A stretch of 64,000 nucleotides of DNA from Pirellulales bacterium (GTDB lineage Bacteria; Planctomycetota; Planctomycetia; Pirellulales; JAEUIK01): assembly GCA_019636335.1 (NCBI GenBank), contig JAHBXR010000018.1, positions 62,001 to 126,000 on the forward strand, written 5' to 3'. The position numbers and the translations under genes are program-made. The notes under the pieces were generated by a model, which was given only the letters and a program-made list of their open reading frames with translations, did not search any database and was not told the DNA's origin. Positions 2,014-40,847 of this stretch are shown in pieces. Position 1 is the stretch's first letter, and each line of letters begins with the position of its first letter.

Positions 2014-3291
2014 ATGAGGCCGAAGATACCGATGATTCAATCGACGCAAGCACCGCAGGAACACGTTCAGGTGGCCGTGATCGGGGGAGGGCCCGGGGGG
2101 GCTACCGCCGCGACGTTGATTGCCCAGCAGGGCTATCAGGTACGGTTGTACGAGCGGGAGCATTTTCCCCGTTTTCACATCGGCGAATCGCTGATTCCGG
2201 AAACGTACTGGGTGCTCAAGCGGCTCAATATGCTCGAGAAGTTGCACAAGAGCCCTTTCATCAAGAAGTACAGCGTGCAATTCGTCAGCGCCTCGGGACG
2301 GCTGTCGGAGCCGTTCTACTTCATGGAGCACAAGCCGCACGAGTGCTCGCAGACGTGGCAGGTGCTGCGGAGCGAGTTCGATCAGATGATGCTCGAGAAT
2401 GCCAGCGAGCATGGGGTCGACGTGCGGCACGGGGTGCGCGTGCTCGATGTGATGTTCGACGGCGACCGCCAGACGGGGCTGCGGCTGCAAGAGGAAGATG
2501 GCCGCCAGCACGAGATCACGGCCGACGTGGTCGTCGATGCTTCGGGGCAGAGCTCCCTGATCGCCAGCCGGCTCAAGCTGCGGGTGCCCGACGCCAAGTT
2601 GAAGAAAGGAGCGTTATGGACCTATTGGGAAGGCGCCTATCGCGACGAGGGACGCGATGAGGGGGCCACGATGGTGCTCCAGACGCAGGGCAAGAAGGGG
2701 TGGTTCTGGTATATCCCGCTCCACCGCAACATCGTCAGCGTGGGGGTTGTCTCGTCGTTCGAATACCTCTTCAGCAAGGAACGGGGAACGGATCACGAGA
2801 AGATCTACCAGGAGGAGGTCGATCTTTGTCCTGCCGTGAAGGAACGCATCTCGCAGGGACGCCGCGTGGCCGAGTTCTACGCCACGAAGGACTACACCTA
2901 TCGGTCCTCGCGGGTAGCGGGCGATGGTTGGGTGCTGGTGGGAGATGCGTTCGGCTTTCTCGATCCGCTTTATTCGTCGGGCGTGCTGCTGGCGCTCAAG
3001 TCGGGGCAACTGGCGGCGGATGCGGTTGTGGAAGGATTCCAGAAGCAGGATCTTTCGGCCGCGCAGCTCGGCAAATGGCAGGACAATTTCACCCAGGGCA
3101 TGGACCGCATGCGGCGGTTGGTTTGCGAGTACTACGACGGGTTCAGCTTTGGGCGGTTCGTGAAGCGGCACCCCGACCTTAAGGGCCATCTGACCGATCT
3201 GCTCATCGGCGATCTGTTCGAAGACAAGGTCGATGACGTGATCGCTCCAATGGACGTGATGCGGGCCGAGATGCAAGCCGCGGCCGAATGA
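2014..3291 (+). CDS. FAD-dependent oxidoreductase, flavin-dependent halogenase-like
   Basis: 425 residues. The N-terminal Rossmann FAD motif is GGGPGG (about residues 24-29). The segment FPRFHIGESLIP (about 51-62) is the signature seen in flavin-dependent halogenases and some geranylgeranyl-reductase-like enzymes. WFWYIP (about 230-235) matches the halogenase WxWxIP motif, and KK at about 84-85 lies near where halogenases carry their active-site lysine. The GDAFGFLDPLYSSG segment near residue 310 is the second FAD-contact motif. The closest class would be halogenases acting on free or carrier-bound aromatic substrates, but no biosynthetic cluster surrounds it, so real halogenation is unproven. 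The start is uncertain: ATG at 2032 is an alternative. Confidence 0.8.
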   Translation: MRPKIPMIQSTQAPQEHVQVAVIGGGPGGATAATLIAQQGYQVRLYEREHFPRFHIGESLIPETYWVLKRLNMLEKLHKSPFIKKYSVQFVSASGRLSEPFYFMEHKPHECSQTWQVLRSEFDQMMLENASEHGVDVRHGVRVLDVMFDGDRQTGLRLQEEDGRQHEITADVVVDASGQSSLIASRLKLRVPDAKLKKGALWTYWEGAYRDEGRDEGATMVLQTQGKKGWFWYIPLHRNIVSVGVVSSFEYLFSKERGTDHEKIYQEEVDLCPAVKERISQGRRVAEFYATKDYTYRSSRVAGDGWVLVGDAFGFLDPLYSSGVLLALKSGQLAADAVVEGFQKQDLSAAQLGKWQDNFTQGMDRMRRLVCEYYDGFSFGRFVKRHPDLKGHLTDLLIGDLFEDKVDDVIAPMDVMRAEMQAAAE

Positions 3292-3495
3292 CGCCGTGGC
3301 GCGGCATAATCGTGTCGAGGCGTTACAAACGGCGCCATCGATACCGCTGGAGTGCCGCGCCCCCACCGTGTGTTCGCGGTGCCGGCGGCCCTACGTTAGA
3401 GTGGAACTTGCGCCGTAAGGGCGTGCCGTTTCGCTCGTGCGCCGTCGTCACTCCGCAAGTAGAGTTGCCCCCTGAGTCCGCCACCCCCTGCAAGT

Positions 3496-4998
3496 TTGCG
3501 AATATGCCCACGGGCTGTCGCCGCGTCCGGCGGCGTGGGCTGGTGGTTCGCCCTGCTGGCGACGGCGTGCGCAGGTCTCGTCGTGAGCGGAACGGCTCGC
3601 GGGGCCTGGGCGCGCGCGAGCGACGATCTCACCGCGGCCCGGCACGAGCTCGAGGCCAAATACACCGCGGAGCTCGAATCGCTGGCCGCCTGGTGCGATG
3701 AGCGCAAGTTGGCCGATGAAGCGGCCGAGACCCGCGCGCAATGGCACGAGCTCGATCCTCGCAAAGTCTACTTGTCGGTGCTGCGGTCCAAAATCGAAGA
3801 CACCGCCGAGGGCGAAGCCCTGCGCCACTCGGCCGAGTGGCGCGCGCGTTTCACGAAGCTGCGACACGCTCAGGCCAGCGCCCGGTTCGATCTGGCGCAG
3901 AAGGCCATTCGACAGGGGAGGCCCTCGCTCGCCTTCGAACTGGTGTTGTCGGCACTGCACGATAATCCCGATCACGAGCCGAGCCGGCGCTTGCTGGGCT
4001 ATCAGCGTTTTCGCGGCGCGTGGCACACGCCGTTCGAGATTCGCAAGTTACGGGCCGGCCAGGTGTGGCACGAGAAGTTCGGCTGGCTACCGGCGAGCTA
4101 CGTCGAGCGTTACGAGCAAGGGCAACGCTTCACCGGCGGCCGTTGGATGAGCGCCGCCGACGAGGCCCGCGCGCGCAGCCAGATCGCCGACGGCTGGCGG
4201 ATCGAGACCGAACACTACGACATTACGACGAATCACAGTCTCGAAGCGGGCGTGGCGTTGGGCGTCGAGTTAGAACGGCTGCACCTCGTCTGGCGGCAGC
4301 TCTTCGCCAGCTACAACGCCAACGCCGGCCAATTGGCCAGCTTGTTCGAAGGTCGCGCGACGCAGCGTTCCAGCGGGCCACGGCACCGTGTGGTCTTCTT
4401 CCGCGATAGCGACGACTATCGCGCGGCGCTGAGTAGCATTCTTCCGCCCGACGTCGAAACGACCGGCTTCTACTGGGGAGATCGCCGTACGGCGTTTTTC
4501 TATGCCACCGAGGATGACGATCGCGGCACGCTCTACCACGAAGCGACGCATCAGCTCTTCAGCGAGACGCGACCAACCTCGCGCGACGTCGGCTCGCGGG
4601 CGAACTTCTGGCTGATCGAAGGCATCGCCTGTTATATGGAATCGCTGGCGCGCGAAGAGGGCTACGACACGGTGGGGGGCGCCGATGCCGTGCGCTATGG
4701 CGATGCACGCTTTCGCCTGCTCGAATCGAAGTTCTACGTCCCCTTGGCGCAACTCAGCGGCGCCGGCATGCGCGATTTCCAGCAAGATCCGAACCTGCCC
4801 CTGCTCTACAGCCAGGCGGCCGGTCTGTCGCATTTTCTGATGCACTACGACGAGGGACGCTACCGCGACGCGCTCGTGGCGCTATTGTCGCTCCTCTATG
4901 CGGGGCAGGACCGCCCAGGCAGCCTGCCCGAACTGACCGGCAAGAGCTATTCGGAGCTCGATCAGCAGTACCGCGAGTTCATGAGCGCGGCGCCGTAA
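3496..4998 (+). CDS. DUF1570-like exported protein with HExxH zinc-protease motif
   Basis: About 500 residues. A hydrophobic segment near residues 16-35 suggests a signal peptide or anchor. The middle is helical and TPR-like (roughly 40-170). The C-terminal third holds YHEATHQ (about residue 350, an HExxH motif) followed about 30 residues later by WLIEGIACYME, whose Glu would be the third zinc ligand of a gluzincin. This arrangement matches the DUF1570-type families common in planctomycetes. The assumed start is a TTG without a convincing ribosome binding site; a GTG at 3535 is an alternative. The substrate is unknown. Confidence 0.75.
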   Translation: MRICPRAVAASGGVGWWFALLATACAGLVVSGTARGAWARASDDLTAARHELEAKYTAELESLAAWCDERKLADEAAETRAQWHELDPRKVYLSVLRSKIEDTAEGEALRHSAEWRARFTKLRHAQASARFDLAQKAIRQGRPSLAFELVLSALHDNPDHEPSRRLLGYQRFRGAWHTPFEIRKLRAGQVWHEKFGWLPASYVERYEQGQRFTGGRWMSAADEARARSQIADGWRIETEHYDITTNHSLEAGVALGVELERLHLVWRQLFASYNANAGQLASLFEGRATQRSSGPRHRVVFFRDSDDYRAALSSILPPDVETTGFYWGDRRTAFFYATEDDDRGTLYHEATHQLFSETRPTSRDVGSRANFWLIEGIACYMESLAREEGYDTVGGADAVRYGDARFRLLESKFYVPLAQLSGAGMRDFQQDPNLPLLYSQAAGLSHFLMHYDEGRYRDALVALLSLLYAGQDRPGSLPELTGKSYSELDQQYREFMSAAP

Positions 4999-25887: not shown

Positions 25888-27408
25888 CTACACCGTACCG
25901 CGTTGCTGGTCGAACTTGTCGGCGCCGACCCACGTGCCGTGGAAGCCGTAGGGGACGCGCGTCGGCAGCTTGACGCGGGCCAGCGGCTCGGCGGTGAAGT
26001 CTTGGGCGTCGACGACCACCAGCTCGCTCTTTTGTTCTGCCTCGTCGTAGACGAAGGTGACGAGCCAGCCGTCGTCCTCGCCGTTTGCCTCGGGACGTGC
26101 CACGAAGACCGGTTCACCTCCCTTGCGACCCGGTCCGTGCGGATGACGCACCGAGGCGCCGCTGGTGTGGTCGTACTTCACGAGTCCGCCGGTGGGTAGA
26201 TCCATGGCATAGCCGAATTGTGCCGGCCGCCCCAGCAGCTTGTCGTTGAGACGTGGGAAATCGACGGCCAGGTCGTCGAGCGCTTCTTCGCGTGTCTCGC
26301 CCGACTTCAGATTGAAGCGCCAGCGGTAGAGCGCCGTGGGGATGTTGAGCGGATCCCCCTCGATCGTTTTCGGAGGGGGCATCTTCACGACGTCGGGATA
26401 ATCGCTCAGCCGGCAGGCCAGCAGGACGACGTCGTCCCCTTCTTCGTAGGCGTTGAGCGTGTGGAAGACGAAACAGCCGGGCGAATCGAACCAGCGGATT
26501 TCCTTGGCGCGGCCATGACGGGGGAGCACGCCGAAACGGCTTCCTCGCTCGGGCTCGTACGCCAGCAGCGGTTCGCCCCGCGCCTGGCGCCGCAGATCGA
26601 ACGTCACGGGCAGGTCCATGAAGATCGAATAGTTCTCGGTGACGGCGAAGTCGTGCATCATCACCGGCTTGGTCAACCGCACGCCGACCGTGTTCGACAG
26701 CTCGCCCGCCGCGTTCACCACGTTGTATTGCAGCAGCGGCGCGAGGGCGGAGTAGCCGAAGAACATCATCTCGCCCGTCGCGGCGTCCACCTTCGGGTGC
26801 GCGGTGAAGGGATGCTTCAACTTGCCGCTGTACTTGTACGCGCCGATGGTGTCGAGATCGGGGACGCGGACGGCGTACGGTTCGCCCCCTTCCCACAGGG
26901 CGAGGAGTCGGCCGTCGTGCCAGACGAGCGCCGTGTTCGCGGCATTCTTGAAGAGGGGCTGCCCGGAGGCGAGCTTCTTGATATCGGGGGGATCGGCCAG
27001 TCCGCCCCACAGCGCGCGGCCGGCGGCGCGTTCTGCTTCGAAGCCCGCCGTACGCACCCAACGATTGCGGTAGCTGGCCTTGTCGTCGGCGAGGCGCACG
27101 CCGTGCAGCATGCCGTCGCCGTCGAACCAGTGGTAGTTGCCCGGCGGCGCGAATTGCGGATTCGGACCGGTGCGGACGTACATGCCCAAGAGATCCTTCG
27201 GCAGCTTGCCGATGACGGGCAGATCCAGGGCCGTGATCTCTTCTTGCACCGGCGCGAAGTTGCCCTGCAGGAAAGGACTCTCGGGCCACGCGGGTTCGGC
27301 GGGTAGCGGCTCGCCGAAGCAGTAGGGCAGGCCTTCGCCCGTCGTGACGAGGCAGCCTGCCATGGCCGATAGGCGTAGAAAATCGCGGCGCGAGAAACGC
27401 GTGGACAT
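25888..27408 (-). CDS. Carotenoid oxygenase (RPE65/CCO family), Tat-exported
   Basis: 506 residues. The N-terminus has a twin-arginine signal SRRDFLRLS. The four iron-ligand histidines of the seven-bladed propeller family are visible in order: FTAHPKVD, MMHDFAVT, FHTLNAYEE and, near the C-terminus, GFHGTWV. The WFDGDGMLHGV segment is also typical. These Fe(II) dioxygenases cleave carotenoids, apocarotenoids or stilbenes; the substrate here is unknown. Export is unusual for the family though seen in bacterial lignostilbene-like members. Confidence 0.92.
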   Translation of the reverse strand: MSTRFSRRDFLRLSAMAGCLVTTGEGLPYCFGEPLPAEPAWPESPFLQGNFAPVQEEITALDLPVIGKLPKDLLGMYVRTGPNPQFAPPGNYHWFDGDGMLHGVRLADDKASYRNRWVRTAGFEAERAAGRALWGGLADPPDIKKLASGQPLFKNAANTALVWHDGRLLALWEGGEPYAVRVPDLDTIGAYKYSGKLKHPFTAHPKVDAATGEMMFFGYSALAPLLQYNVVNAAGELSNTVGVRLTKPVMMHDFAVTENYSIFMDLPVTFDLRRQARGEPLLAYEPERGSRFGVLPRHGRAKEIRWFDSPGCFVFHTLNAYEEGDDVVLLACRLSDYPDVVKMPPPKTIEGDPLNIPTALYRWRFNLKSGETREEALDDLAVDFPRLNDKLLGRPAQFGYAMDLPTGGLVKYDHTSGASVRHPHGPGRKGGEPVFVARPEANGEDDGWLVTFVYDEAEQKSELVVVDAQDFTAEPLARVKLPTRVPYGFHGTWVGADKFDQQRGTV

Positions 27409-30637: not shown

Positions 30638-31855
30638 CTACCCAAAGATGCGATCGCGGCGGGCTTTGTTGTAGGCCAGCTTCTCGGCCTGCGTCATCTG
30701 GGCGAAGTTTGGCTTGTCCGGCGTCGAAGGGGCCACGCCAGCAGTGGTCGGGCGCGAGGCAACCGTCTTTGCCGGCTGCTTCGAGGTCGGAATTCCCGTC
30801 GGCAGCGAGACCGACGACGAGCCGCCGTAGCTCATGACATTGGTTTGCAGCGTGAGGTCGTCTGCGAGCGAGCGCTGCGGCTTGATGCTCAGCTTTTCAA
30901 GCACGCCGTGGTAGGCGCGAACCGCTTCTTCCGGTTCGATCTCGCCGTCGGCGAGCAGACGCAGGAACTGCACGAAGGCGAGCTGGCACTCGGCGTTGTT
31001 GATCTTGCGTCCGAAGAGGGCCACGCGGGCGCCATAGCGGCGTGCTTCGGCCAGCAGCTTGAAGGCGTCGTAGGTCGTGCCCGATCCACCGCCGAGGATG
31101 CCCACGACCAGATGCGGATCGTAGGCACAAAGCTCTTCGAGTGCTTTCGGACCGTGGTAGACGATCTTCAAGAACTGCGGACGCCCCGTCTGCGAGACGC
31201 CGGCCAGCGCTCGGGCGATACAGTCGTTGACGAAAGAGGGGATCTGCTCGGCAGATAGCCCTTCGGGAGAGTTCGGATCAAAGACTTCGAGGAAATGCCG
31301 AAAGCCTTTTTGTTCTGCCTCGATTCGGAAGCGGCGGTATTCTTCGAGCGAGCGGAGATCTTCGTCCAACCGGTTGTTGAACGTCATGCTGTAGAGGCCC
31401 AGGTTCGCTCCACGCTGGCGTTCGTGCGGGGCGCAATCGACCTTGCCGCACTGGATGTGGTCGATGGTAGCGGTGCGGAAGGGCTGCGAGGGTTGCTCGA
31501 GGTACTTCGCACCGCGCAAGACGAAGATGTCGCTCGTGTCGTTGGCCCGGGCGGCTGGTGTGACCGCGCTGTCGTCGAACAGGCGCTCGCCGATCGAGAG
31601 GACGTCGTTCGTGCTGGCCGACATGAGCATGATGTCGACATAACCTTGTCGCACGATCTGACGAATCTGCTCGCGATACTCGGCCAACGTGCGGAGTCGT
31701 ACCTCGCCGGCATGCATTTCGGGCGAATGCCCCGGCGCGCCGATACCGAAGGCCATGTCGGCATCCTTGGCATCGGCCAGAATGAACTCGCGGCAGCCGG
31801 AAGGATCGGCGTGAATGGCGGCAAGCTTGCGATCGAGCGATTTTTCTACCGGCAT
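30638..31855 (-). CDS. DhnA/FbaB-like class I aldolase-fold protein with C-terminal encapsulation peptide
   Basis: 405 residues; last gene of the BMC locus. Residues ~1-340 look like a TIM-barrel related to the DhnA/FbaB class I aldolases: FLKIVYHG (about 224) holds a lysine at the position of the Schiff-base lysine, and VGILGGGSGTTYDAF plus RVALFGRKINNAE match the late phosphate-binding Gly-rich strands of that family. A Thr/Pro/Ala/Ser linker (about 345-380) then leads to a terminal amphipathic helix, NFAQMTQAEKLAYNKARR (about 383-400), resembling an encapsulation peptide. The ATG at 31855 is chosen; the longer frame upstream runs through a dispersed repeat. Substrate unknown. It would be a second aldolase next to the class II enzyme at 33009. 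Confidence 0.75.
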   Translation of the reverse strand: MPVEKSLDRKLAAIHADPSGCREFILADAKDADMAFGIGAPGHSPEMHAGEVRLRTLAEYREQIRQIVRQGYVDIMLMSASTNDVLSIGERLFDDSAVTPAARANDTSDIFVLRGAKYLEQPSQPFRTATIDHIQCGKVDCAPHERQRGANLGLYSMTFNNRLDEDLRSLEEYRRFRIEAEQKGFRHFLEVFDPNSPEGLSAEQIPSFVNDCIARALAGVSQTGRPQFLKIVYHGPKALEELCAYDPHLVVGILGGGSGTTYDAFKLLAEARRYGARVALFGRKINNAECQLAFVQFLRLLADGEIEPEEAVRAYHGVLEKLSIKPQRSLADDLTLQTNVMSYGGSSSVSLPTGIPTSKQPAKTVASRPTTAGVAPSTPDKPNFAQMTQAEKLAYNKARRDRIFG

Positions 31856-31982: not shown

Positions 31983-32930
31983 CTACTTATGGGTCGCACC
32001 CACGCGCGAGAGGACGGTGTCGGTCGTTTGACGGAGTACGCCCGCGCTGGTGCGCAGGGCCTGGAGTTCCTTGGGCCACAGCTCCGGCTCGACCGTACCG
32101 AGTACCCCCTGGCGTCCCACGATCGTCGGCACCGAGAGGGCGACGTTGCGAATGCCGTACGCGCCGCGCTGCACGCTCGAGACGGGCAGCACGCGGCGGC
32201 GATCGAGGGCGATCGATTCGATGACCTCGCGAATGGCGATGCCGACGGCGAAGCCCGCGCCCCCCTTGCGCTTGATGACCTCGGCGCCGGAGCCCTTGGT
32301 GCGCGTGAAGAGTTCGGTGGCCAGGTGGGGCGTCCAGCCGGGGTACTTGTCGAGGGGTAGACTGGCGGCCGTGGCGCTCGACCAGATCGGCACCATGCTG
32401 TCGCCGTGCTCACCCAGGATCAGGGCCGAGACCTGCGTCGGCGGCAGCGTCAGCTTTTCGGCAATCAGGCTGCGAAAGCGGATCGTGTCGAGCTGCGTGC
32501 CCAGGCCGATCACTTGCGACGAAGGCAGGTTCAATCGATCGGCGGCCAGGTAGGTCAGCACGTCGACGGGGTTCGAAACAACGACGACGATGGCATCTTG
32601 CCTATGACCGACCTTTTGGATCTCGCCCAGGATGCCGAGGAAGAGATCGACGTTGCGATTGATGAGATCCAAGCGGCTTTCGTCGGGCTTGCGCCGCAGG
32701 CCGGCGGTGATGCAGATCACGTCGCTGTCGGGGATCTCGTCGTAGCCGTCGGCCGTGATGGTTTGATCAGCGACGAGCGTCGCGCCGTGCAACAGGTCGA
32801 GGGCCTGTCCCGCGGCCAACTCCGCATTCACGTCGAGCAGCGCCAAATGTCGTACGACGGCGCCCATTTGCAGGGCGAAGGCGGTCGAAGAGCCGACGAG
32901 ACCGCCGCCGCCGATGATACTGACTTTCAT
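31983..32930 (-). CDS. Lactate/malate dehydrogenase family enzyme of the BMC locus
   Basis: 315 residues, normal for the NAD-dependent L-LDH/MDH family. Seen: NAD motif GGGGLVGSS (about 7-15), the mobile-loop segment TAGLRRKPDESRLDL (about 75-89), VSNPVDV (about 119), the Asp/Arg pair in TQLDTIRFR, and the catalytic His in LGEHGDSMVP. In LDHs the loop has Gln where this protein has Arg before KP, and Arg there is the malate-dehydrogenase discriminator, although the following ESRLDL is LDH-like. No encapsulation peptide is visible at either end. A role in NADH/NAD recycling or lactate/lactaldehyde metabolism linked to the microcompartment is inferred. Confidence 0.9.
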   Translation of the reverse strand: MKVSIIGGGGLVGSSTAFALQMGAVVRHLALLDVNAELAAGQALDLLHGATLVADQTITADGYDEIPDSDVICITAGLRRKPDESRLDLINRNVDLFLGILGEIQKVGHRQDAIVVVVSNPVDVLTYLAADRLNLPSSQVIGLGTQLDTIRFRSLIAEKLTLPPTQVSALILGEHGDSMVPIWSSATAASLPLDKYPGWTPHLATELFTRTKGSGAEVIKRKGGAGFAVGIAIREVIESIALDRRRVLPVSSVQRGAYGIRNVALSVPTIVGRQGVLGTVEPELWPKELQALRTSAGVLRQTTDTVLSRVGATHK

Positions 32931-32985: not shown

Positions 32986-33014
32986 TGTCAGGTACGGGGG
33001 TACCTGACCTACTT
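32986..33014. repeat. Family A palindromic arm
   Basis: TGTCAGGTACGGGGGTACCT followed by GACCTACTT. It overlaps the 3' end of the class II aldolase gene, whose final AAG TAG is encoded by the repeat edge (stop 33009-33011). Confidence 0.8.
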
Positions 33015-33884
33015 TTGCGCGAGCGCTTCGAGCACGCGGGTGGTGATTGCCTGCACGAGCGCTTCTTGATCGATGCCGGCGGGTAGCGATGCTACGGCGG
33101 CACTGGTCGCCGCGGCGGTCGCCTTCCGCATCACTGGGGGAGCGTCGAAGGCACGCTGCTCGATGCCGGCTTCCTTCCAGCTCTCGCGGAAGACGTCGTT
33201 CGCACAGATGTCGCAGTTCTGCATATCTTCGTTGAAGCGGGCGTCGGCGAAACCGAGACGCGACTTCAGATCCAGCAGTTCGCGAGTTTCGCCTTCGGTG
33301 AAGTAGTTCACGCGGCCCAATTGTTTCGCCAAGAGCAGCATGCGGCAGTAGGCGTCGAGGATCTCGGTCCACCAGTAGGCCTGCTCGACCGACGTGCCGT
33401 AGCTGATCGTGCCGTGGTTGGCCAGGATCATCACGTTCGTCTTCTTGGCGAAGGGCAAGACCGTGTCGGCGAACTTCTGCGTGCCGGGGGTTTCGTACTT
33501 CGCGATGGGGATGTCGCCGAGGAACACCTCGACCTCGGGCAGCACGCACTGCGGGATCGGCTCGCGGGCAATGGCGAAGGCCGTGGCATGGGGCGGATGG
33601 CAGTGGACGACGCTCTTCACGTCGGGCCGTTCGCGCATGATCGCCAGGTGGAGCAGGATCTCGCTCGTGCGCTTGCGGCGGCCCGAGAGTTGCTTGCCAT
33701 CGAGATCGACCGTGCAGAGATCCTCGGGGGTCATGAACCCCTTGCAGATCATCGTCGGCGAGCAGACGACTTCGTTCTCGCCGATGCGATAGCTGATGTT
33801 GCCGTCGTTGGCGGCGGCAAAGCCCTTCTGATACAGCCGGCGGCCGATCTCGCAGATGTCTTTCTTGATTTGATAAACGTTCAT
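33009..33884 (-). CDS. Class II aldolase (fuculose/rhamnulose-phosphate aldolase type) with C-terminal encapsulation peptide
   Basis: 291 residues, longer than FucA (~215) because of a C-terminal extension. Core: GNISYRIG (about 28-35), PEVEVF with the presumed catalytic Glu, the zinc ligands HCHPPH (about 94-99) and ANHG (about 155). After residue ~240 come an Ala/Thr/Pro linker and a terminal amphipathic helix (QEALVQAITTRVLEALAQ), the form of a BMC encapsulation peptide. By analogy with the planctomycete BMC aldolase it would split L-fuculose-1-phosphate or L-rhamnulose-1-phosphate into DHAP and L-lactaldehyde inside the shell. It overlaps the upstream BMC-P gene by ATGA. Confidence 0.92.
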   Translation of the reverse strand: MNVYQIKKDICEIGRRLYQKGFAAANDGNISYRIGENEVVCSPTMICKGFMTPEDLCTVDLDGKQLSGRRKRTSEILLHLAIMRERPDVKSVVHCHPPHATAFAIAREPIPQCVLPEVEVFLGDIPIAKYETPGTQKFADTVLPFAKKTNVMILANHGTISYGTSVEQAYWWTEILDAYCRMLLLAKQLGRVNYFTEGETRELLDLKSRLGFADARFNEDMQNCDICANDVFRESWKEAGIEQRAFDAPPVMRKATAAATSAAVASLPAGIDQEALVQAITTRVLEALAQK

Positions 33885-34198
33885 GCGCGTGACTTTCGAT
33901 TTCCTTTCCTGGTCGGCGGCTCGAGATCGATGGTGTCGAGGATGGCCGCGTTGTAAGCGTCGATCGGTTTGCCTGCGGGGTCGAAGGGTTGGGCAGCCTC
34001 GCGTCCTTCGCTGATGGCGATCAAGCTGCCGTTGCCGGCGCCGAGGTCGTCGTACACGACGATCGGCTCGGCCCGCTGGCCGGGCTCGCCCCGGAGATTG
34101 TCGAGCGTGAGGGGCACTGCCAGACGCAAGCTTCCACCCACGAGGAGCGGGTGGGCACGATTGAGCGTGACGGTGCCGATGACTTCGCCAATTCGCAT
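33881..34198 (-). CDS. BMC-P shell vertex protein (EutN/CcmL family)
   Basis: 105 residues. N-terminal MRIGEVIGTVTLNRAHPLLVG is the first strands of the pentameric EutN/CcmL fold, and YDDLGAGNGSLIAISEGREA is the conserved D-x-GAG-x-G loop. Pentamers cap the vertices of the icosahedral shell. One of three BMC-P paralogs in the locus. It starts one base after the stop of the upstream gene and its own stop overlaps the aldolase start, so expression is coupled. Its C-terminal tail PTRKGNRKSRA is basic. Confidence 0.93.
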   Translation of the reverse strand: MRIGEVIGTVTLNRAHPLLVGGSLRLAVPLTLDNLRGEPGQRAEPIVVYDDLGAGNGSLIAISEGREAAQPFDPAGKPIDAYNAAILDTIDLEPPTRKGNRKSRA

Positions 34199-34199
34199 T

Positions 34200-34913
34200 T
34201 CAGACCAAGCGTTGCTTGACTCCTTCTCCGAGCGAGTGACCTGCTGGCGCCGTCGTGGCGACGACGATCTGTCTCAGCTCGAACAGGCTTTTTCCTTTTG
34301 GCTCGATGACGAACAAGTTCGCGGCGAGCGAGGCTCGAGCTTGTCGCGCCAGGTTCGCCGACCGTGCCAGCACGGCCCGCACGCCCGAGGTTCGGTTCGC
34401 CAGGCAGAGGGCCGCATCGGCGGCATCGGTGAAGAGCACGCCGATCGCGCCGCCACGCGCGACTTGATCGACGATTTCGTCCACCACACCTACCAGACCG
34501 ACTCGAGACACTTGCTGTACTTCTTCCTTCAGCCCTGCCAGCAGACCGGTTGGCTCATCGTTCGTTTCTGCCACGCCGACGACCCTACGCAAGCCTAGCT
34601 GCGCCGGGGGCTTTCGCGGCGCCTGCCGTACGAGCGAAATGCCGCGATCCCACAACAGATCGCGTGTGGCGGGCGTGACGATCGCCGTGGCCGGCACGAC
34701 CACCGCGCGTTTGTTCGTCAGACGATCGACGATCGTGGCTACGCTCACCACACGTTCGTGCAGCACAAGTCGCTCGCCGTTGTCGTTTGGTTCCTCTGCT
34801 TTCACCGCCGGGGCCTGTTTCTCCGCGGCACCATTCCCCTGTAGGCGGGCGAGCACGTCGCGCACGATTCGTTCGATTTCGCTTTCGTTTGGCAGTCCTT
34901 GCACGTGGCTCAT
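34200..34913 (-). CDS. BMC-locus protein of unknown function, RpiB-like C-terminal half, N-terminal encapsulation peptide
   Basis: 237 residues. Residues ~8-26 (NESEIERIVRDVLARLQG) form an amphipathic helix of the encapsulation-peptide kind, followed by a Lys/Ala/Pro/Glu linker. Residues ~47-95 (LHERVVSVATIVDRL..., TPATRDLLWDRGI) resemble a short conserved region found in several BMC-associated proteins. Residues ~125-225 weakly resemble the RpiB/LacAB sugar-phosphate isomerase fold: ANRTSGVRAVLARS and ARASLAANLFVIE parallel ANKxPGVRAAL and NxANVLxLG. The GTGxG active-site motif of RpiB is not evident. It overlaps the upstream BMC-P gene by ATGA, implying tightly linked production. Function unknown; a cargo or structural role is inferred. 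Confidence 0.75.
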   Translation of the reverse strand: MSHVQGLPNESEIERIVRDVLARLQGNGAAEKQAPAVKAEEPNDNGERLVLHERVVSVATIVDRLTNKRAVVVPATAIVTPATRDLLWDRGISLVRQAPRKPPAQLGLRRVVGVAETNDEPTGLLAGLKEEVQQVSRVGLVGVVDEIVDQVARGGAIGVLFTDAADAALCLANRTSGVRAVLARSANLARQARASLAANLFVIEPKGKSLFELRQIVVATTAPAGHSLGEGVKQRLV

Positions 34914-35170
34914 GGATCGACGATTCCCTGCACGCTCCAGCGGACCGGCGTTCGGTCGTCCCCTAGGATCTTGGCCGCTTCGGGACCGTCGCTGGTGAGC
35001 ATGACCATCGCGCCGCGGCCGGCGCCGAGCGTGTCGATCACGAGCACCGGATCTTCGTCGGGCGTGACGCCGTCGGTCTGGTAACGCTGCACGATGAGCA
35101 GCTTCGCGCCGTTCATCGACGCGTGCTTCACCGTGGAGGTTGCCGTTCCGACGACTCGCCCGAGGTTCAT
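34910..35170 (-). CDS. BMC-P shell vertex protein (EutN/CcmL family)
   Basis: 86 residues, the minimal EutN/CcmL length. MNLGRVVGTATSTVKHASMN opens the fold and IDTLGAGRGAMVMLTSDGPEA is the conserved loop, ending in VQGIVDP. The ATG at 35170 is used; the ORF extends further upstream only through Lys/Arg-rich sequence next to a family A repeat. Coupled by ATGA overlap to the RpiB-like gene. Confidence 0.93.
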   Translation of the reverse strand: MNLGRVVGTATSTVKHASMNGAKLLIVQRYQTDGVTPDEDPVLVIDTLGAGRGAMVMLTSDGPEAAKILGDDRTPVRWSVQGIVDP

Positions 35171-35258
35171 GGCTTGTTCTCTTGCCGTCTGTGTTGCTTG
35201 GCGACTTTGGGTCGAATCCTTCGCTCTCCCTCGCTTACGCTTCGGGTTGGGATTCTTG

Positions 35259-35339
35259 TAGGTCAGGTACGCCGTACCTGACAACCTATCGAGTTAGCAA
35301 CATCGAACATTGTCAGGTACGGCGTACCTGACCTACTTT
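35259..35339. repeat. Two-armed palindromic repeat, family A (clean copy)
   Basis: TAGGTCAGGTACGCCGTACC...TGAC, a 30-base middle containing TCGAGTTAGCAACATCGA, then TGTCAGGTACGGCGTACCTG...ACCTACTTT. Each arm is itself palindromic and the two arms are inverted copies of each other, a REPIN-like layout. It lies between the aldehyde dehydrogenase and BMC-P genes, inside the presumed operon. Confidence 0.85.
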
Positions 35340-35359: not shown

Positions 35360-36793
35360 TTACTTGCCCAGGATGCACAGGTCGTCGATCAGCGAGCAGC
35401 GCCGCTCGCGGGTAAAAGTCAGTGGTGTGGTCACGCCTTCGCCCGTCGGCGTGGCGATCGAGAAGCTGATGTAGCCTTCGCCCCCCAAGCCGAGCGACGA
35501 CATGCATGGCCCGTTCTTGACGAAGAGCGTGGTGTCGAGCGCGCGCCCCATCTTGGTCATGTTGCGGACGTCGTTCGAGTGAATGATGGCCGTGTGGCGG
35601 AAGCCATGTTCGAAGTGCTTGGCCTTGGCGATCGCCTCGTCGACGTCGCGGCAGCGCACGAAGGGGAGGAAAGGCATCATCTGTTCGACCGGCACGAAGG
35701 GGTTCGACTCGTCGGTCTCGCCGAAGAGCACCTCGGTTTCCGCCGATACGCTCTTGCCGATGCCTCGTGCGAGGACGGCCGCGTCCTGGCCGAGGAACTC
35801 CTTGGCGGGCACGTCGTGGCGATGATTGCCTTCGCCCACCTGGGTGATGGCGACCTTCGTCAGCGCGTCGACTTCACGGGCACAGAGCTTGACGGCGCCC
35901 GCTTTTTCCATCGCCGCGAGCATGCGATCGAAGACCGCATCGACGACGAAGACCTCTTTCTCCGCGATGCAGAGCAGGTTGTTGTCGTACGAGGCGCCCT
36001 GGATGATCGCCCGGGCCGCACGGTCGAGGTCGGCCGTTTCGTCCACCACCACGGGCGGATTGCCGGGGCCGGCCACGATGGCGCGCTTGCCGCTGTTCAT
36101 GGCGGCGCGGGCCACGGCCGGACCGCCCGTCACGCAGATCAGCTTCACGCCGCGATGGCGGAAGATGGCGTCGGCCGATTCGAGCGTCGGCTCGGCGATG
36201 ACGCAGATCAGGTTGTCGATGCCGAGATCGCGATAGATGGCCTCGTTGAAGCGGCGCACGCCTTCAGCGGCCACGCGGCGACCGCTCGGGTGGGGATTCA
36301 CCACCAGCGTATTACCGCCGGCGATCATGCTCACCGCGTTGCCGGTGATCGTGGGAAGCGAGTGGGTGACGGGCGTGATGCAGCCGATGACGCCGAACGG
36401 GGCATGTTCGATGACGGCCAGGCCGCGATCGCCGCTGAAGACCTCGCTGCGGAGAAACTCGACGCCGGGCGTGCGCTCGCCGAGCGTTTTGAGCTTTTCG
36501 ATCTTGTGGACGAGCCGGCCGATTTTCGTCTCTTCCATTTCCATCGTGCCGAGCTCGACCGACTGCTCGATCGAGATACGGCGGATGTGATCGATGACCC
36601 GCTTGCGATCGGCGACCGTGCGGGTCGAGAGTTGCTCGAAGGCGTCGGTGGCGGCGTCGACGGCGTCGTCGACCGAATCGAAGATGCCGAAACGCCCCTT
36701 GCTGCGCGGGGCAGCAACGGCGGCCGGCGCGCCTTTGAGCTGCGCGAGCACCTCTTCGACCACATTGCGAATCAAGGCTTCAGTAGCTTGCAT
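35360..36793 (-). CDS. CoA-acylating aldehyde dehydrogenase with N-terminal encapsulation peptide
   Basis: 477 residues, PduP/EutE-like length. Residues 1-20 ([20 protein letters not shown]) are an amphipathic helix like the PduP signal, followed by an Ala/Pro linker. The catalytic Cys lies in [16 protein letters not shown] (about 280-295), a signature of CoA-acylating members; [14 protein letters not shown] (about 247-260) is the conserved NAD-domain segment. By locus analogy it converts L-lactaldehyde to lactyl-CoA with NAD and CoA inside the shell, retaining the toxic aldehyde. It lies between two BMC-P genes. Confidence 0.94.
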
Positions 36794-36884: not shown

Positions 36885-37211
36885 CTACCGCCCCGGCGAA
36901 TCCCCTTCGCGGTGGAAGACTCTTGCTTGATCGACGTGGACCGTGTCGACGATGCCGATCACGGCGCAATCGACCGGTAGCTGCTTCGTCTCGGGCGTGA
37001 GTCGGGCGCTCGAGCCTTGTACGATGAGCACGAACTCGTCGATGCCGGCGCCGAGCGTATCGACGGCGACAAACGTGCGGCCCGTCCCCTTCAGACGCGA
37101 GCGATCTTGCTCATCGACGCGATAGGGTTCGACGACGAGCAGCTTGTAGCCCACCATCGAGGCGACCTTCTGCGTCGAAACGACGCTGCCGGTTACTTTG
37201 GCCAGGAACAT
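36885..37211 (-). CDS. BMC-P shell vertex protein (EutN/CcmL family)
   Basis: 108 residues. MFLAKVTGSVVSTQKVASMVG and VDTLGAGIDEFVLIVQGSSARL match the EutN/CcmL fold; VIGIVDTVHVD closes the domain, with a charged tail after it. Third BMC-P paralog of the locus. It starts three bases after the kinase stop codon. Confidence 0.93.
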   Translation of the reverse strand: MFLAKVTGSVVSTQKVASMVGYKLLVVEPYRVDEQDRSRLKGTGRTFVAVDTLGAGIDEFVLIVQGSSARLTPETKQLPVDCAVIGIVDTVHVDQARVFHREGDSPGR

Positions 37212-37214
37212 TGG

Positions 37215-38402
37215 TTAGCTTTCGTTGAGTAGTTGCCTTGTCTGCCGCGCGACGATCAGCTCTTCGTTCGTGGGAATCGTCCAGATCGCCGTACGGCTTT
37301 CGGCCGCGCTGATCTTCGCTTCTCCCCGCGCCGCTTGATTGGCCGCCAGGTCGAGTTCGAGGCCCAATTCACGCAAGTCGCGGCAGACCGCTTCGCGTAC
37401 ACGCGCGCCGTTCTCGCCGATGCCCCCGGTGAAGACGAGCACGTCGGCTCCGCCGAGTTCGACGAGCAAGGCCCCCAATTCACGTCGCGTCGCACCGATG
37501 AAGACATCCAGTGCGAGTTGTGCCTGCTGATTGCCCTGCGCGGCGGCCTCTTCCAGATCGCGCACGTCGCCGCTCGTGCCGCTGAGGCCGAGCAAGCCGC
37601 TCCGCTCGGCCAGCTCGTCGAGCAGTTCGTCGAGCGACTTGCCCGTGGCTTCCATCAATACCGGCAGGGAGAACGCGTCGAAGTCTCCCACACGATTGTT
37701 GTGGGGCACACCCGACTGCGGGCTCATGCCCATCGAGGTGGCCACGCTCTGCCCGTTTCGTATCGCACAGAGCGAGCTCGAGCCACCGAGATGGCAGGAG
37801 ATGATTCGCAGATCGTTGCGCCCCAACAACTCGGCCGTGCGCGTGGCGATGTAGCGATGGCTGGCGCCATGGAAGCCCCAGCGACGCACGTGATACTTCG
37901 TGGCCCACTCGTAAGGGACCGCGTAGTACTTGTTGTGCTCGGGCATCGTTTGGTGAAAGCCCGTCTCGAACGCCGCGATGAGTGGCATCTCGGGCAGGCG
38001 TTCGCGCAGGACTCGCATGGCCTTGGCATAGGGGGGATTGTGTGCCGGTGCGACCCGGGCCATGCGATCGAGCGCCGCGAGCACGCGCTCGTCCACCAAC
38101 TGCACGCCACTGATATCGCCGCCGTGTACGGCCTTGAAGCCGATGGCGGCGACATCCTCGGCCCGCGCGAGGCATCCTTGCTGCGGGTCGGTGAGCTGCG
38201 CGAGGCACTGACGCACCGCGACGGCATGGTCGGGCACGTGCATGGTCTCTTCGCGACGCACGCCGCCGATTTCGACGAACGTGCGGCTTTCTGGCGCACC
38301 GATGCGCTCGACGCCCCCCCGCGCCAGTTGCCGCTCGTCGCGCATGTCGAACAAGCGGTACTTGAAGCTGGTTGAGCCGAGATTGGCTACCAGGACGTAC
38401 AT
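37215..38402 (-). CDS. ackA: Acetate/propionate-kinase family enzyme of the BMC locus (lactyl-phosphate kinase candidate)
   Basis: 395 residues, full AckA length. Family motifs: NLGSTSFKYRLF at the N-terminus, AHNPPYAK (about 120-127), GFHGASHRYIATR (about 176-188), CHLGGSSS and FTGGIGENG. Several active-site positions differ from the well-studied Methanosarcina enzyme: Arg91 is Lys90, Asp148 is Glu146, and pocket residue Leu122 is Ala120, while His123, His180, Arg241 and Phe179 equivalents are kept. It probably makes ATP from an acyl-phosphate produced by PduL. The ATG at 38402 gives the correct N-terminus; the longer frame runs into a repeat. Confidence 0.9.
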   Translation of the reverse strand: MYVLVANLGSTSFKYRLFDMRDERQLARGGVERIGAPESRTFVEIGGVRREETMHVPDHAVAVRQCLAQLTDPQQGCLARAEDVAAIGFKAVHGGDISGVQLVDERVLAALDRMARVAPAHNPPYAKAMRVLRERLPEMPLIAAFETGFHQTMPEHNKYYAVPYEWATKYHVRRWGFHGASHRYIATRTAELLGRNDLRIISCHLGGSSSLCAIRNGQSVATSMGMSPQSGVPHNNRVGDFDAFSLPVLMEATGKSLDELLDELAERSGLLGLSGTSGDVRDLEEAAAQGNQQAQLALDVFIGATRRELGALLVELGGADVLVFTGGIGENGARVREAVCRDLRELGLELDLAANQAARGEAKISAAESRTAIWTIPTNEELIVARQTRQLLNES

Positions 38403-38471
38403 GTGGTTGCGACTCCTGCGATCCTTCGGACAGATTTCCTCAGAAGCAATGAAGGGAATCCATTGCTCGAA

Positions 38472-38557
38472 GCGTGGCACTGCTGGCTTGCCCAGCAGTG
38501 GTTCTTCGATTTGCTTCAGCCTTTCCGACACTGCTGGGCGAGCCAGCAGTGCCACGC
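38472..38557. repeat. Inverted GTGGCACTGCTGG elements, family B
   Basis: GCGTGGCACTGCTGGCTTGC followed by CCAGCAGTG (38472-38500) is mirrored by CACTGCTGGGCGAGCCAGCA then GTGCCACGC (38529-38557), with about 28 bases between. Each half can also fold alone. It fills the gap between the second BMC-H gene and the kinase gene. A small GCAATG/CATTGC hairpin is at 38446-38466. Confidence 0.8.
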
Positions 38558-38587: not shown

Positions 38588-38866
38588 TTACGACAGGAAG
38601 GCGGTGACGAGACCTTCGGCCGGACGGGGGATAATGTGGCTGGCCACGAGCTCGCCGACTTGCGTCGCCGCATTCGCGCCGGCCTCGACCGCCGCACGCA
38701 CGCTGCCGACGTCGCCGCGGACGATGGTCGTGCCGTAGGCGCCGCCGATCTGCACTTGCTTTACGATCTGCACGTTGGCCGCCTTGGCCATGGCGTCGGT
38801 CGCCTCGATCAAGGCCACGAGGCCGCGTGTTTCAATCAATCCGATGGCGTCTTGCATGTTGAGCAC
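38588..38866 (-). CDS. BMC-H hexameric shell protein
   Basis: 92 residues, single Pfam-BMC domain. DAIGLIETRGLVALIEATDA opens the domain; the pore loop reads QIGGAYGTT, and IVRGDVGSVRAAVEAGA and HIIPRP are canonical. Hexamers tile the shell facets. The pore loop differs from the KIGSG loop of its neighbour at 38975, implying different pore selectivity. The start is either the GTG at 38866 (GGAAAGG five bases upstream) or the ATG at 38857. Confidence 0.95.
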   Translation of the reverse strand: MLNMQDAIGLIETRGLVALIEATDAMAKAANVQIVKQVQIGGAYGTTIVRGDVGSVRAAVEAGANAATQVGELVASHIIPRPAEGLVTAFLS

Positions 38867-38974: not shown

Positions 38975-39262
38975 CTAGTGGCCGATCTCGGGGAGGACGG
39001 TCTTCAGGTCGTCGTGCGGACGGGGAATGACCTGCACGCTGACCACTTCGCCGATACGACCCGCGGCGGCGGCGCCCGCGTCGGTAGCAGCCTTCACGGC
39101 GGCCACATCCCCCGTGACGAACGCCGTCACCAGGCCGCTGCCGATCTTCTGCCAGCCCAGGAACTGGACGTTGGCCGCCTTCATCATTGCGTCGCTCGCC
39201 TCGATCAGGGTCACGAAACCCTTGGTCTCGATCATGCCGAGCGCTTCCATTGCCTTAGCCAT
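38975..39262 (-). CDS. BMC-H hexameric shell protein
   Basis: 95 residues, single BMC domain very close to PduA/CcmK types: [21 protein letters not shown], pore loop [25 protein letters not shown] and [11 protein letters not shown]. The KIGSG pore is the PduA-like form. It is expected to be the main facet protein. It precedes the second BMC-H gene by about 110 bases. Confidence 0.96.
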
Positions 39263-39302: not shown

Positions 39303-39995
39303 CTAGTGCGCACAGGCGCACGGTTTCGGTTTCTTCACCAGCTCGACGCGGGTGGCGTGGTCGAGATCGACCGCGTTCCCTTCGTCGGTGTCGATGTGGA
39401 CTTCGAGCTTGCTCGTCGCGTCGGCCCGCACGAGCAGGTCCTCGAGCACGGTCGAGCAGCTCGACTCGATCCGCAGGTTGATGCGGTCGCCATTCTTCAC
39501 GCCGTAAAAGGCGGCGTGATCGTGGTGCATGTGGACGTGCCGCTCGGCGCGGATCACGCCTGCTTTCAATTCGACGACGCCGTGCGGTCCGACGAGGACG
39601 CAACCGGGCGTGTCCGCGATATTGCCACTGGCACGCACCGGCACATCGATGCCGAGCGAGATGGCATCGGTGAAGGCGAGCTCGACCTGGCTCTTCGGCC
39701 GCGTGGGACCGAGCACGCGCACCGAGGGGAGCATGCGCTTGCGCGGGCCGACGATCATGACCGTCTCTTCCGCCGCGTAGAAGCCATCTTGATAGAGGGG
39801 CTTAGCGGGCGTGAGCTTGCGCCCGGGGCCGAAGAGGGTCTCGACGTGCTCATCGGTCAGATGCACGTGCCGCGCCGAGATGCTGACGACCAGTTCTGGC
39901 ATGCCGCTGGCGCGGCCGCCAAATTGGCGCGAGACGATTTCGCGGACGATCCGTTCGACGGTGGCTCGATCGAGCGATGATGTGTTGGCAATCAT
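39303..39995 (-). CDS. pduL: Phosphate acyltransferase PduL with N-terminal encapsulation peptide
   Basis: 230 residues. The two-domain PduL fold is recognisable from [21 protein letters not shown] (zinc His pair) and [22 protein letters not shown] (further zinc ligands). Residues ~6-24 ([20 protein letters not shown]) form the amphipathic signal helix known for PduL in microcompartments. It converts acyl-CoA plus phosphate to acyl-phosphate, recycling CoA inside the shell; here the acyl group is probably lactyl. It lies first after the regulator. The C-terminus ends in a CACAH cysteine-rich tail. Confidence 0.95.
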
Positions 39996-40070: not shown

Positions 40071-40847
40071 TTATCCGTTGTCTGTCTGGCCGGCGAGGGA
40101 GAGTTTCACTCCGGCCGCGATGAGGCGGCTGCGCCAGTCTTCGGTGATCTCGGTGTCGACGACGAGTCGATCGACGGCGCCGAGCTCGGCGAGATGGGCC
40201 AGGCTTTGCTTCCCGAATTTCGAACTGTCGGTCACGACGATGACTTCATCCGCGGCGTTCATCATGGCGCGTTCGGTCTCGACCAGCAGCAGGTTGCTGT
40301 TGAAGTAACCCCGCTCGGTGATGCCTCCCACGCTGAGCACGGTGCGCCGCACGCGGATCTCGGCGAGCATCTGGTTGGCATACGGTCCCAGCGACACGCC
40401 CGTGCGGGGATAGACGTAGCCCCCCAGCAACACGAGATCGGCGCTCGGATCGGCGGCAAACAGGTTCGCCACGGGCAGCGAGTTGGTCACCACCTGTAGC
40501 GAGCGTCCGACGAGCAGTCGGGCCACCTCGTAGGTGGTCGATCCGCCGTCGAGCAGCACGGTGTCGCCACTTTCGATGAGGGCTACCGCCCGCTCGGCGA
40601 TGGCCCGTTTTTTGTCCCACTGCGCCGGCTGGCGTTCCTCGAAGTGAGGAAACTTCGGGGCATGACCGGCATAGAAGACGCCGCCGTGCGTGCGCCGCGC
40701 GGCGCCGGCCTCTTCGAGGTAGTCGAGATCGCGGCGGATCGTCGATTCGGAGACGGCCAGCTCCTCGACCAGCTCCGGCAGCGAGGCAAAGCCGCGCGTG
40801 CGGACCAGCTCGAGCAGACGATGGCGACGTTCCTCGGCTAGGACCAT
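40071..40847 (-). CDS. DeoR/GlpR-family transcriptional regulator
   Basis: 258 residues. The N-terminal HTH (RRHRLLELVRTRGFASLPEL, then VSESTIRRDLDYLEEAG) is the DeoR signature with the conserved STIRRDL recognition helix. The C-terminal sugar-phosphate sensor domain shows LLDGGSTTYEVARLL (about 101-115), NSLPVANL and a late VTDSSKFGK. DeoR proteins usually repress sugar genes and release DNA on binding a sugar phosphate. Being first in the BMC locus, it is the likely local regulator and probably senses a fuculose/rhamnulose-type phosphate. Confidence 0.93.
   Translation of the reverse strand: MVLAEERRHRLLELVRTRGFASLPELVEELAVSESTIRRDLDYLEEAGAARRTHGGVFYAGHAPKFPHFEERQPAQWDKKRAIAERAVALIESGDTVLLDGGSTTYEVARLLVGRSLQVVTNSLPVANLFAADPSADLVLLGGYVYPRTGVSLGPYANQMLAEIRVRRTVLSVGGITERGYFNSNLLLVETERAMMNAADEVIVVTDSSKFGKQSLAHLAELGAVDRLVVDTEITEDWRSRLIAAGVKLSLAGQTDNG

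Follow-up and report, generated by a model that had tools for sequence, protein, structure and literature searches.

The closest described system is the PVM (planctomycete/verrucomicrobial) microcompartment, whose published gene set serves the aerobic breakdown of L-fucose and L-rhamnose via lactaldehyde, and in which a class II aldolase is the sole aldehyde-generating enzyme named in the accessible text of these accounts (PMC4207490, PMC8217296, PMC11958385). The SPU microcompartment combines a DeoC-type class I aldolase with RpiB (PMC8217296). The encapsulation peptides of metabolosomes are terminal helices of about 16–18 residues carried on a disordered, poorly conserved linker (PMC12339742).

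In this work we analysed a locus within a 64,000-nucleotide stretch of DNA from a Pirellulales bacterium (the window), which holds a complete PVM-type set with all genes on the same minus strand as the class I aldolase-fold gene that terminates it (30638–31855). From the highest coordinates downwards, the set comprises a DeoR-family, PvmA-like regulator (40071–40847; PF00455/PF08220), a PduL-type phosphotransacylase (39303–39995; PF06130), two BMC-H shell proteins (38975–39262 and 38588–38866; PF00936), an acetate/propionate-type kinase (37215–38555; PF00871), a BMC-P shell protein (36885–37211; PF03319), a CoA-acylating aldehyde dehydrogenase (35360–36793; PF00171), a second BMC-P protein (34910–35284; PF03319), an RpiB/LacAB-fold protein with a tag-like N-terminal helix (34200–34913), a third BMC-P protein (33881–34198; PF03319), the class II aldolase that is the signature enzyme of PVM (33009–33884; PF00596) and a lactate/malate dehydrogenase with a putative role in NAD recycling (31983–32930; PF00056/PF02866). 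The phosphotransacylase and the aldehyde dehydrogenase carry N-terminal tags and the class II aldolase a C-terminal tag-like helix, all recognized in the sequence.

The regulator, PduL, the two BMC-H proteins, the kinase, the three BMC-P proteins, the aldehyde dehydrogenase, the class II aldolase and the lactate dehydrogenase are all shared with the pvm cluster of Planctopirus limnophila (PMC4207490, PMC8217296, PMC11958385). Compared with PVM loci as described in the accessible text of those papers, the window locus adds the class I aldolase as its last gene; in some other genomes the gene is an unlinked satellite. With both an RpiB fold and a class I aldolase fold in one BMC locus, the window set recalls SPU; however, SPU aldolases are ordinary DeoC proteins (pfam01791) whereas the window enzyme fails PF01791, the PVM gene set that the window locus possesses is absent from the description of SPU (PMC8217296), and the window RpiB-fold protein, unlike that of SPU, apparently lacks the usual catalytic loop. 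In this last protein the tag-like helix spans residues 10–26 and the C-terminal part has an RpiB/LacAB isomerase fold (matched to RpiB by Foldseek at 2.7e-7), with an RpiB-resembling CLANRxxGVRAA motif retained; because of the apparent absence of the loop it is possibly a pseudo-isomerase. Downstream of the locus, an RPE65-family carotenoid oxygenase with an apparent twin-arginine signal lies at 25888–27408 (minus strand). Searches of the open literature, a scope outside which most subscription papers fall, returned no account of PVM compartments with a class I aldolase, and an earlier mention may exist. The superfamily and the compartment are already known; what is new is their combination and the tail motif.

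The gene, its fold and its family

The open reading frame runs on the minus strand from an ATG at 31855 to a TAG at 30640–30638 and encodes 405 amino acids. Its position-specific GC content is typical of the genome and its homologs begin at the same residue; it is a genuine gene. A homolog search yielded at least 562 relatives, the best 80 of them 60–75% identical, so that the segments, linker and helix described below are not due to chance. Residues 1–342 (30830–31855) form the catalytic domain, a beta/alpha barrel delimited by the predicted strands and by residue invariance. They are followed by a disordered Ser/Thr/Pro/Ala-rich linker (residues 343–381; 30713–30829), delimited by the structural model and the family alignment, and by a conserved C-terminal tail (residues 382–405, PNFAQMTQAEKLAYNKARRDRIFG; 30641–30712) with a helix at residues 389–404. 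The KIVYHG, GGGSGTTYD and FGRKIN segments from which an earlier note had proposed a class I aldolase are found in this frame (at K230, 255–263 and 281–286, respectively), as are the linker and the terminal helix that the same note had reported. The codons of K230, GG255-256 and GR282-283 lie at 31166–31168, 31088–31093 and 31007–31012.

An AlphaFold2 model built with 58 homologs (61–75% identical) has a mean pLDDT of 84.6 and shows eight strands in barrel order (residues 25–29, 75–78, 99–103, 152–158, 186–192, 229–231, 251–254 and 278–281), with Lys230 in strand 6. Each of the top 50 Foldseek matches of this model is a class I aldolase or a close relative. Structure prediction and comparison with DhnA-type enzymes had been proposed as a check of the original assignment, an unrelated fold or a missing Schiff-base lysine being the outcomes that would speak against it; the prediction gave a barrel with Lys230 at the Schiff-base position. 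The predicted class I aldolase fold, with its lysine on strand 6, is thus backed by the model, by weak profile matches and by residue invariance.

Direct sequence searches of Pfam, NCBIfam and PDB with the window protein gave no match. PF01791 (the DeoC/LacD family) matched none of the 58 members even at E 1; the FbaB-type protein of this genome reaches 198.6 bits with that model. The highest scores come from NF005556 (ADH synthase), weakly matched by 57 of 58 members with a best E of 4.2e-6, while TIGR01949, NF040816 (class I FBP aldolase) and NF006081 (LsrF) are weakly matched by about 31–33. NCBIfam scores are only 13–23 bits against curated cut-offs of 241–430, none of which is passed; in singly scanned members NF040816, TIGR01949 and NF006081 reach 13–20 bits, against cut-offs of 430, 299 and 297. 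In many of these alignments the best block starts with residue 229 or 230, facing the part of NF005556, TIGR01949 and NF040816 that covers strand 6 and holds their Schiff-base lysine. An hhalign comparison with eight FbaB-type aldolases, including the genome's own, gave no match, a negative that carries little information because the input alignments were shallow (Neff about 2). As no curated model was passed and hhalign found nothing, the case for homology to class I aldolases is made by the fold together with the weak profile matches, and the family is probably a distant relative of the DhnA-type enzymes. Like the DhnA/FbaB/LacD group it has the barrel, a predicted Schiff-base lysine on strand 6 and the phosphate-binding Gly-Gly of strand 7 and Gly-Arg of strand 8; it differs from that group in being only about 14% identical and below every Pfam and NCBIfam cut-off, in its additional invariant residues K30, D31, D33, R103 and D106, in its near-invariant H133, C136 and C141, and in its C-terminal linker and tail. 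Since no sequence model of Pfam, NCBIfam or PDB recognizes the window protein and its relatives match the DhnA-type models only marginally, the family is, by the standard of these models, uncatalogued, and is not to be filed under PF01791 or as an equivalog of NF040816, TIGR01949 or NF006081.

Against PDB the family profile gave only weak matches, to lactate dehydrogenase and histone-doublet entries (E 0.2–0.8), which we regard as spurious since the fold is a barrel. A relocated paralogue of the housekeeping FBP aldolase was considered and rejected, the genome having a separate FbaB-type gene and a single member of this family. That FbaB-type gene is divergent from an adjoining second lactate/malate dehydrogenase homolog (L001, 1429–2493 on the minus strand and 2648–3646 on the plus strand), a pair that echoes the aldolase–dehydrogenase pairing of the PVM locus. 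One homolog (L077) is on a short contig of a metagenome-assembled genome labelled Omnitrophota, which points to contamination or transfer.

Linkage to the PVM compartment

Among 80 homologs, taken from one genome per species, the gene lies directly behind the PVM dehydrogenase in 54 and directly behind the class II aldolase in 7, and it is linked to a pvm gene in 63. Co-occurrence was assessed across 292 evenly sampled planctomycete genomes, with thresholds of E < 1e-100 for the family and E < 1e-60 for the PVM-type class II aldolase. The family is present in 29 of these genomes. BMC-P genes are found in 28 of these 29 and in 73 of the 263 others (Fisher p 1.6e-13, shared ancestry ignored), and the PVM-type class II aldolase in 28 of 29 and in 14 of 263 (Fisher p 1.6e-27, likewise ignoring shared ancestry). 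When no shell gene was present in the fetched DNA around a sampled copy, BMC-P was found elsewhere in the genome (17 of 17 copies). The class I aldolase family is therefore almost never found without the PVM compartment, and the unexpected second aldolase signalled by the earlier note is indeed tied to it, both by synteny and by co-occurrence. Twelve of the 292 genomes have the PVM shell and the class II aldolase without the class I gene, which makes the latter dispensable, an accessory rather than a core component. Its median identity is nevertheless that of a core enzyme: 63%, compared with 60% for the aldehyde dehydrogenase, 61% for PduL and 62% for the class II aldolase, and above the values of BMC-P proteins 1 and 2 and of the RpiB-fold protein.

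PVM compartments, which are widespread, break down deoxy-sugars from algae and plants and have been described with one signature aldolase. The existence of a second one that equals the core enzymes in conservation, is tied to shell genes and is invisible to Pfam-based catalogues implies that the PVM substrate range and carbon flow are incompletely known. Because the class I enzyme is almost never encoded without the compartment and has a conserved C-terminal helix of its own, the compartment probably uses two aldolases of different chemistry, where only one has been described.

The C-terminal tail and the location of the enzyme

In the AlphaFold2 model the helix at residues 389–404 has a pLDDT of about 90 and stands behind a disordered stretch with a pLDDT of about 50. 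In the family alignment mean column entropy is 1.36 bits in the tail and 3.50 in the 24 residues that precede it, compared with 1.03 in a core segment, and the linker varies in relatives from 17 to 89 amino acids. The tail follows the consensus P[DN]FxxM[TS]xx[EQ][KR]LA[YW][HNQ]xx[RK]xxRx[LF]G, in short PDFxxMTxxEKLAYHxxRxxRxLG. When 41 genomes were searched with a tail profile, 24 strong matches (E < 0.005) resulted, all of them C-termini of the class I aldolase family, the next match having an E of 0.007; as it finds this family only, the tail is a private, sequence-specific motif. SHOCT-like Pfam matches on the tails of eight members (best E 0.035) are below significance and were discarded.

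In its layout, a terminal helix that follows a poorly conserved and disordered linker, the C-terminus matches an encapsulation peptide. The tail departs from such peptides in its strong sequence motif, its net positive charge and its restriction to one protein family. It also shows no excess of amphipathicity over shuffled sequences, 44% of which attain its hydrophobic moment (0.35). The presumed tags of the neighbouring cargo are also unremarkable in this test (8–67%), which accordingly has little power. By visual comparison the tail is also unlike the IVxxVLxxL tags on other cargo of the window locus. The likeness to an encapsulation peptide that the earlier note had seen thus holds for position and architecture only; the sequence is that of a family-private motif, with an amphipathicity within the range of shuffles. 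For the same reasons targeting of the tail to the shell is, as judged from its sequence, plausible only. Still, the tail most likely recruits the class I aldolase to the compartment, of which the enzyme is probably a cargo.

The observations that weaken the encapsulation-peptide reading also fit a genuine class I aldolase that is co-regulated with the PVM locus and remains cytosolic, its C-terminal motif having another role, for example in oligomerization or in binding a soluble partner. A family-private, positively charged tail unlike the locus tags would suit such an enzyme, as would the location of the gene, unlinked or on another contig in 11 of 28 BMC-positive genomes, and the existence of BMC-positive genomes whose copies lack the tail and keep an intact active site (the tail is absent in G264 and G092, both of which have shells, and degenerate in G171). 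However, most unlinked copies retain the tail (G145, G268, G077, G263, G121, G167, G022 and G226), and the only one of the 29 family-positive genomes without BMC-P (G099) is one with a tail-less copy. Together with the encapsulation-peptide architecture, these properties lead us to consider a cytosolic enzyme unlikely. The private tail offers a test case for whether compartments rely on specific docking motifs in addition to generic encapsulation peptides. Planctopirus limnophila is open to genetic work and, if its genome carries the gene, would allow direct tests of this point and of the substrate range.

In 27 of the 80 homologs the linker contains 4–5 cysteines, mostly as CGC or CAC pairs and often with histidine (L002–L012, L016, L017, L020–L022 and others), a possible metal or redox site; the window linker has none.

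The predicted reaction

Our preferred reading, to which we give a probability slightly above one half, is that the protein is a Schiff-base (class I) aldolase working for the sugar-degrading PVM microcompartment, with a reaction of the dihydroxyacetone phosphate (DHAP) type and a tail probably used for docking. Lys230 on strand 6 would form the Schiff base, Asp28 (strand 1) and Glu190 (strand 5) would be the acid/base residues, and the Gly-Gly of strand 7 and Gly-Arg of strand 8 would hold the phosphate of DHAP, which these two motifs make the most likely donor. K30 and R103 are candidates for binding a further anionic group on the substrate. The most likely reaction is the cleavage, or reversible formation, of a ketose-1-phosphate whose aldehyde half would be lactaldehyde or a close relative, the aldehyde being usable by the aldehyde dehydrogenase of the AldDH/PduL/kinase core. 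The enzyme would thereby widen the range of sugars beyond that of the class II aldolase, or buffer lactaldehyde, while the conserved helix on its disordered linker would dock it to the shell or to another cargo. A bolder form of this model, which is possible and which we put forward tentatively, is that the compartment houses two mechanistically different aldolases, the uncatalogued class I enzyme being recruited by its private docking motif and either handling ketose-1-phosphates closed to the class II enzyme or storing lactaldehyde and DHAP reversibly as a sugar phosphate. As for clues to the substrate in other genomes, no conserved neighbour was found beside the unlinked copies, and neither the L-rhamnose isomerase RhaA nor the L-fucose isomerase FucI discriminates between genomes with and without the class I gene (RhaA is present in 5 of 28 with it and in none of 12 without it, p 0.30).

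The structural matches by themselves could point to another chemistry on the same Schiff-base fold, namely that of a thiolase like LsrF or of a transaldolase like ADH synthase, with lactaldehyde-, methylglyoxal- or CoA-linked intermediates as substrates. We compared the model with Thermoproteus tenax FBP aldolase (1ojx), Methanocaldococcus jannaschii ADH synthase (2qjg), Escherichia coli LsrF (3glc), Streptococcus pyogenes LacD (3mhg) and YihT (7ag1). The best matches are ADH synthase, which NF005556 also represents among the sequence models, and LsrF. However, VIA-align gives a Z of 22.5 for ADH synthase, 21–22 for LsrF and the archaeal FBP aldolase, and 20–21 for the LacD tagatose-bisphosphate aldolase and the YihT sulfofructose-phosphate aldolase, over alignments of about 250 residues at about 14% identity; these scores are essentially tied (within about 2), so that their ranking does not discriminate and the substrate cannot be read from it. 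Moreover, all model scores are far under the cut-offs, and the neighbouring genes are catabolic rather than aromatic-precursor or AI-2 genes. A change of chemistry is in our opinion quite unlikely.

That the protein has lost catalysis and acts as a scaffold in the compartment, as the earlier note had also envisaged, would agree with its long linker and conserved terminal helix and is very improbable, because its conservation equals that of the core enzymes and all predicted catalytic and phosphate-binding positions (D28, E190, K230, GG255-256 and GR282-283) are invariant in 110 of 110 sequences, tail-less copies included. K30, D31, D33, R103, D106, S156, T158, GTT259-261 and D263 are equally invariant. 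Within the barrel, residues 132–141 also form a near-invariant DHxQCGxxDC motif (H133, C136 and C141), missing from a few members, which lies outside the usual class I aldolase motifs and is a possible metal site.
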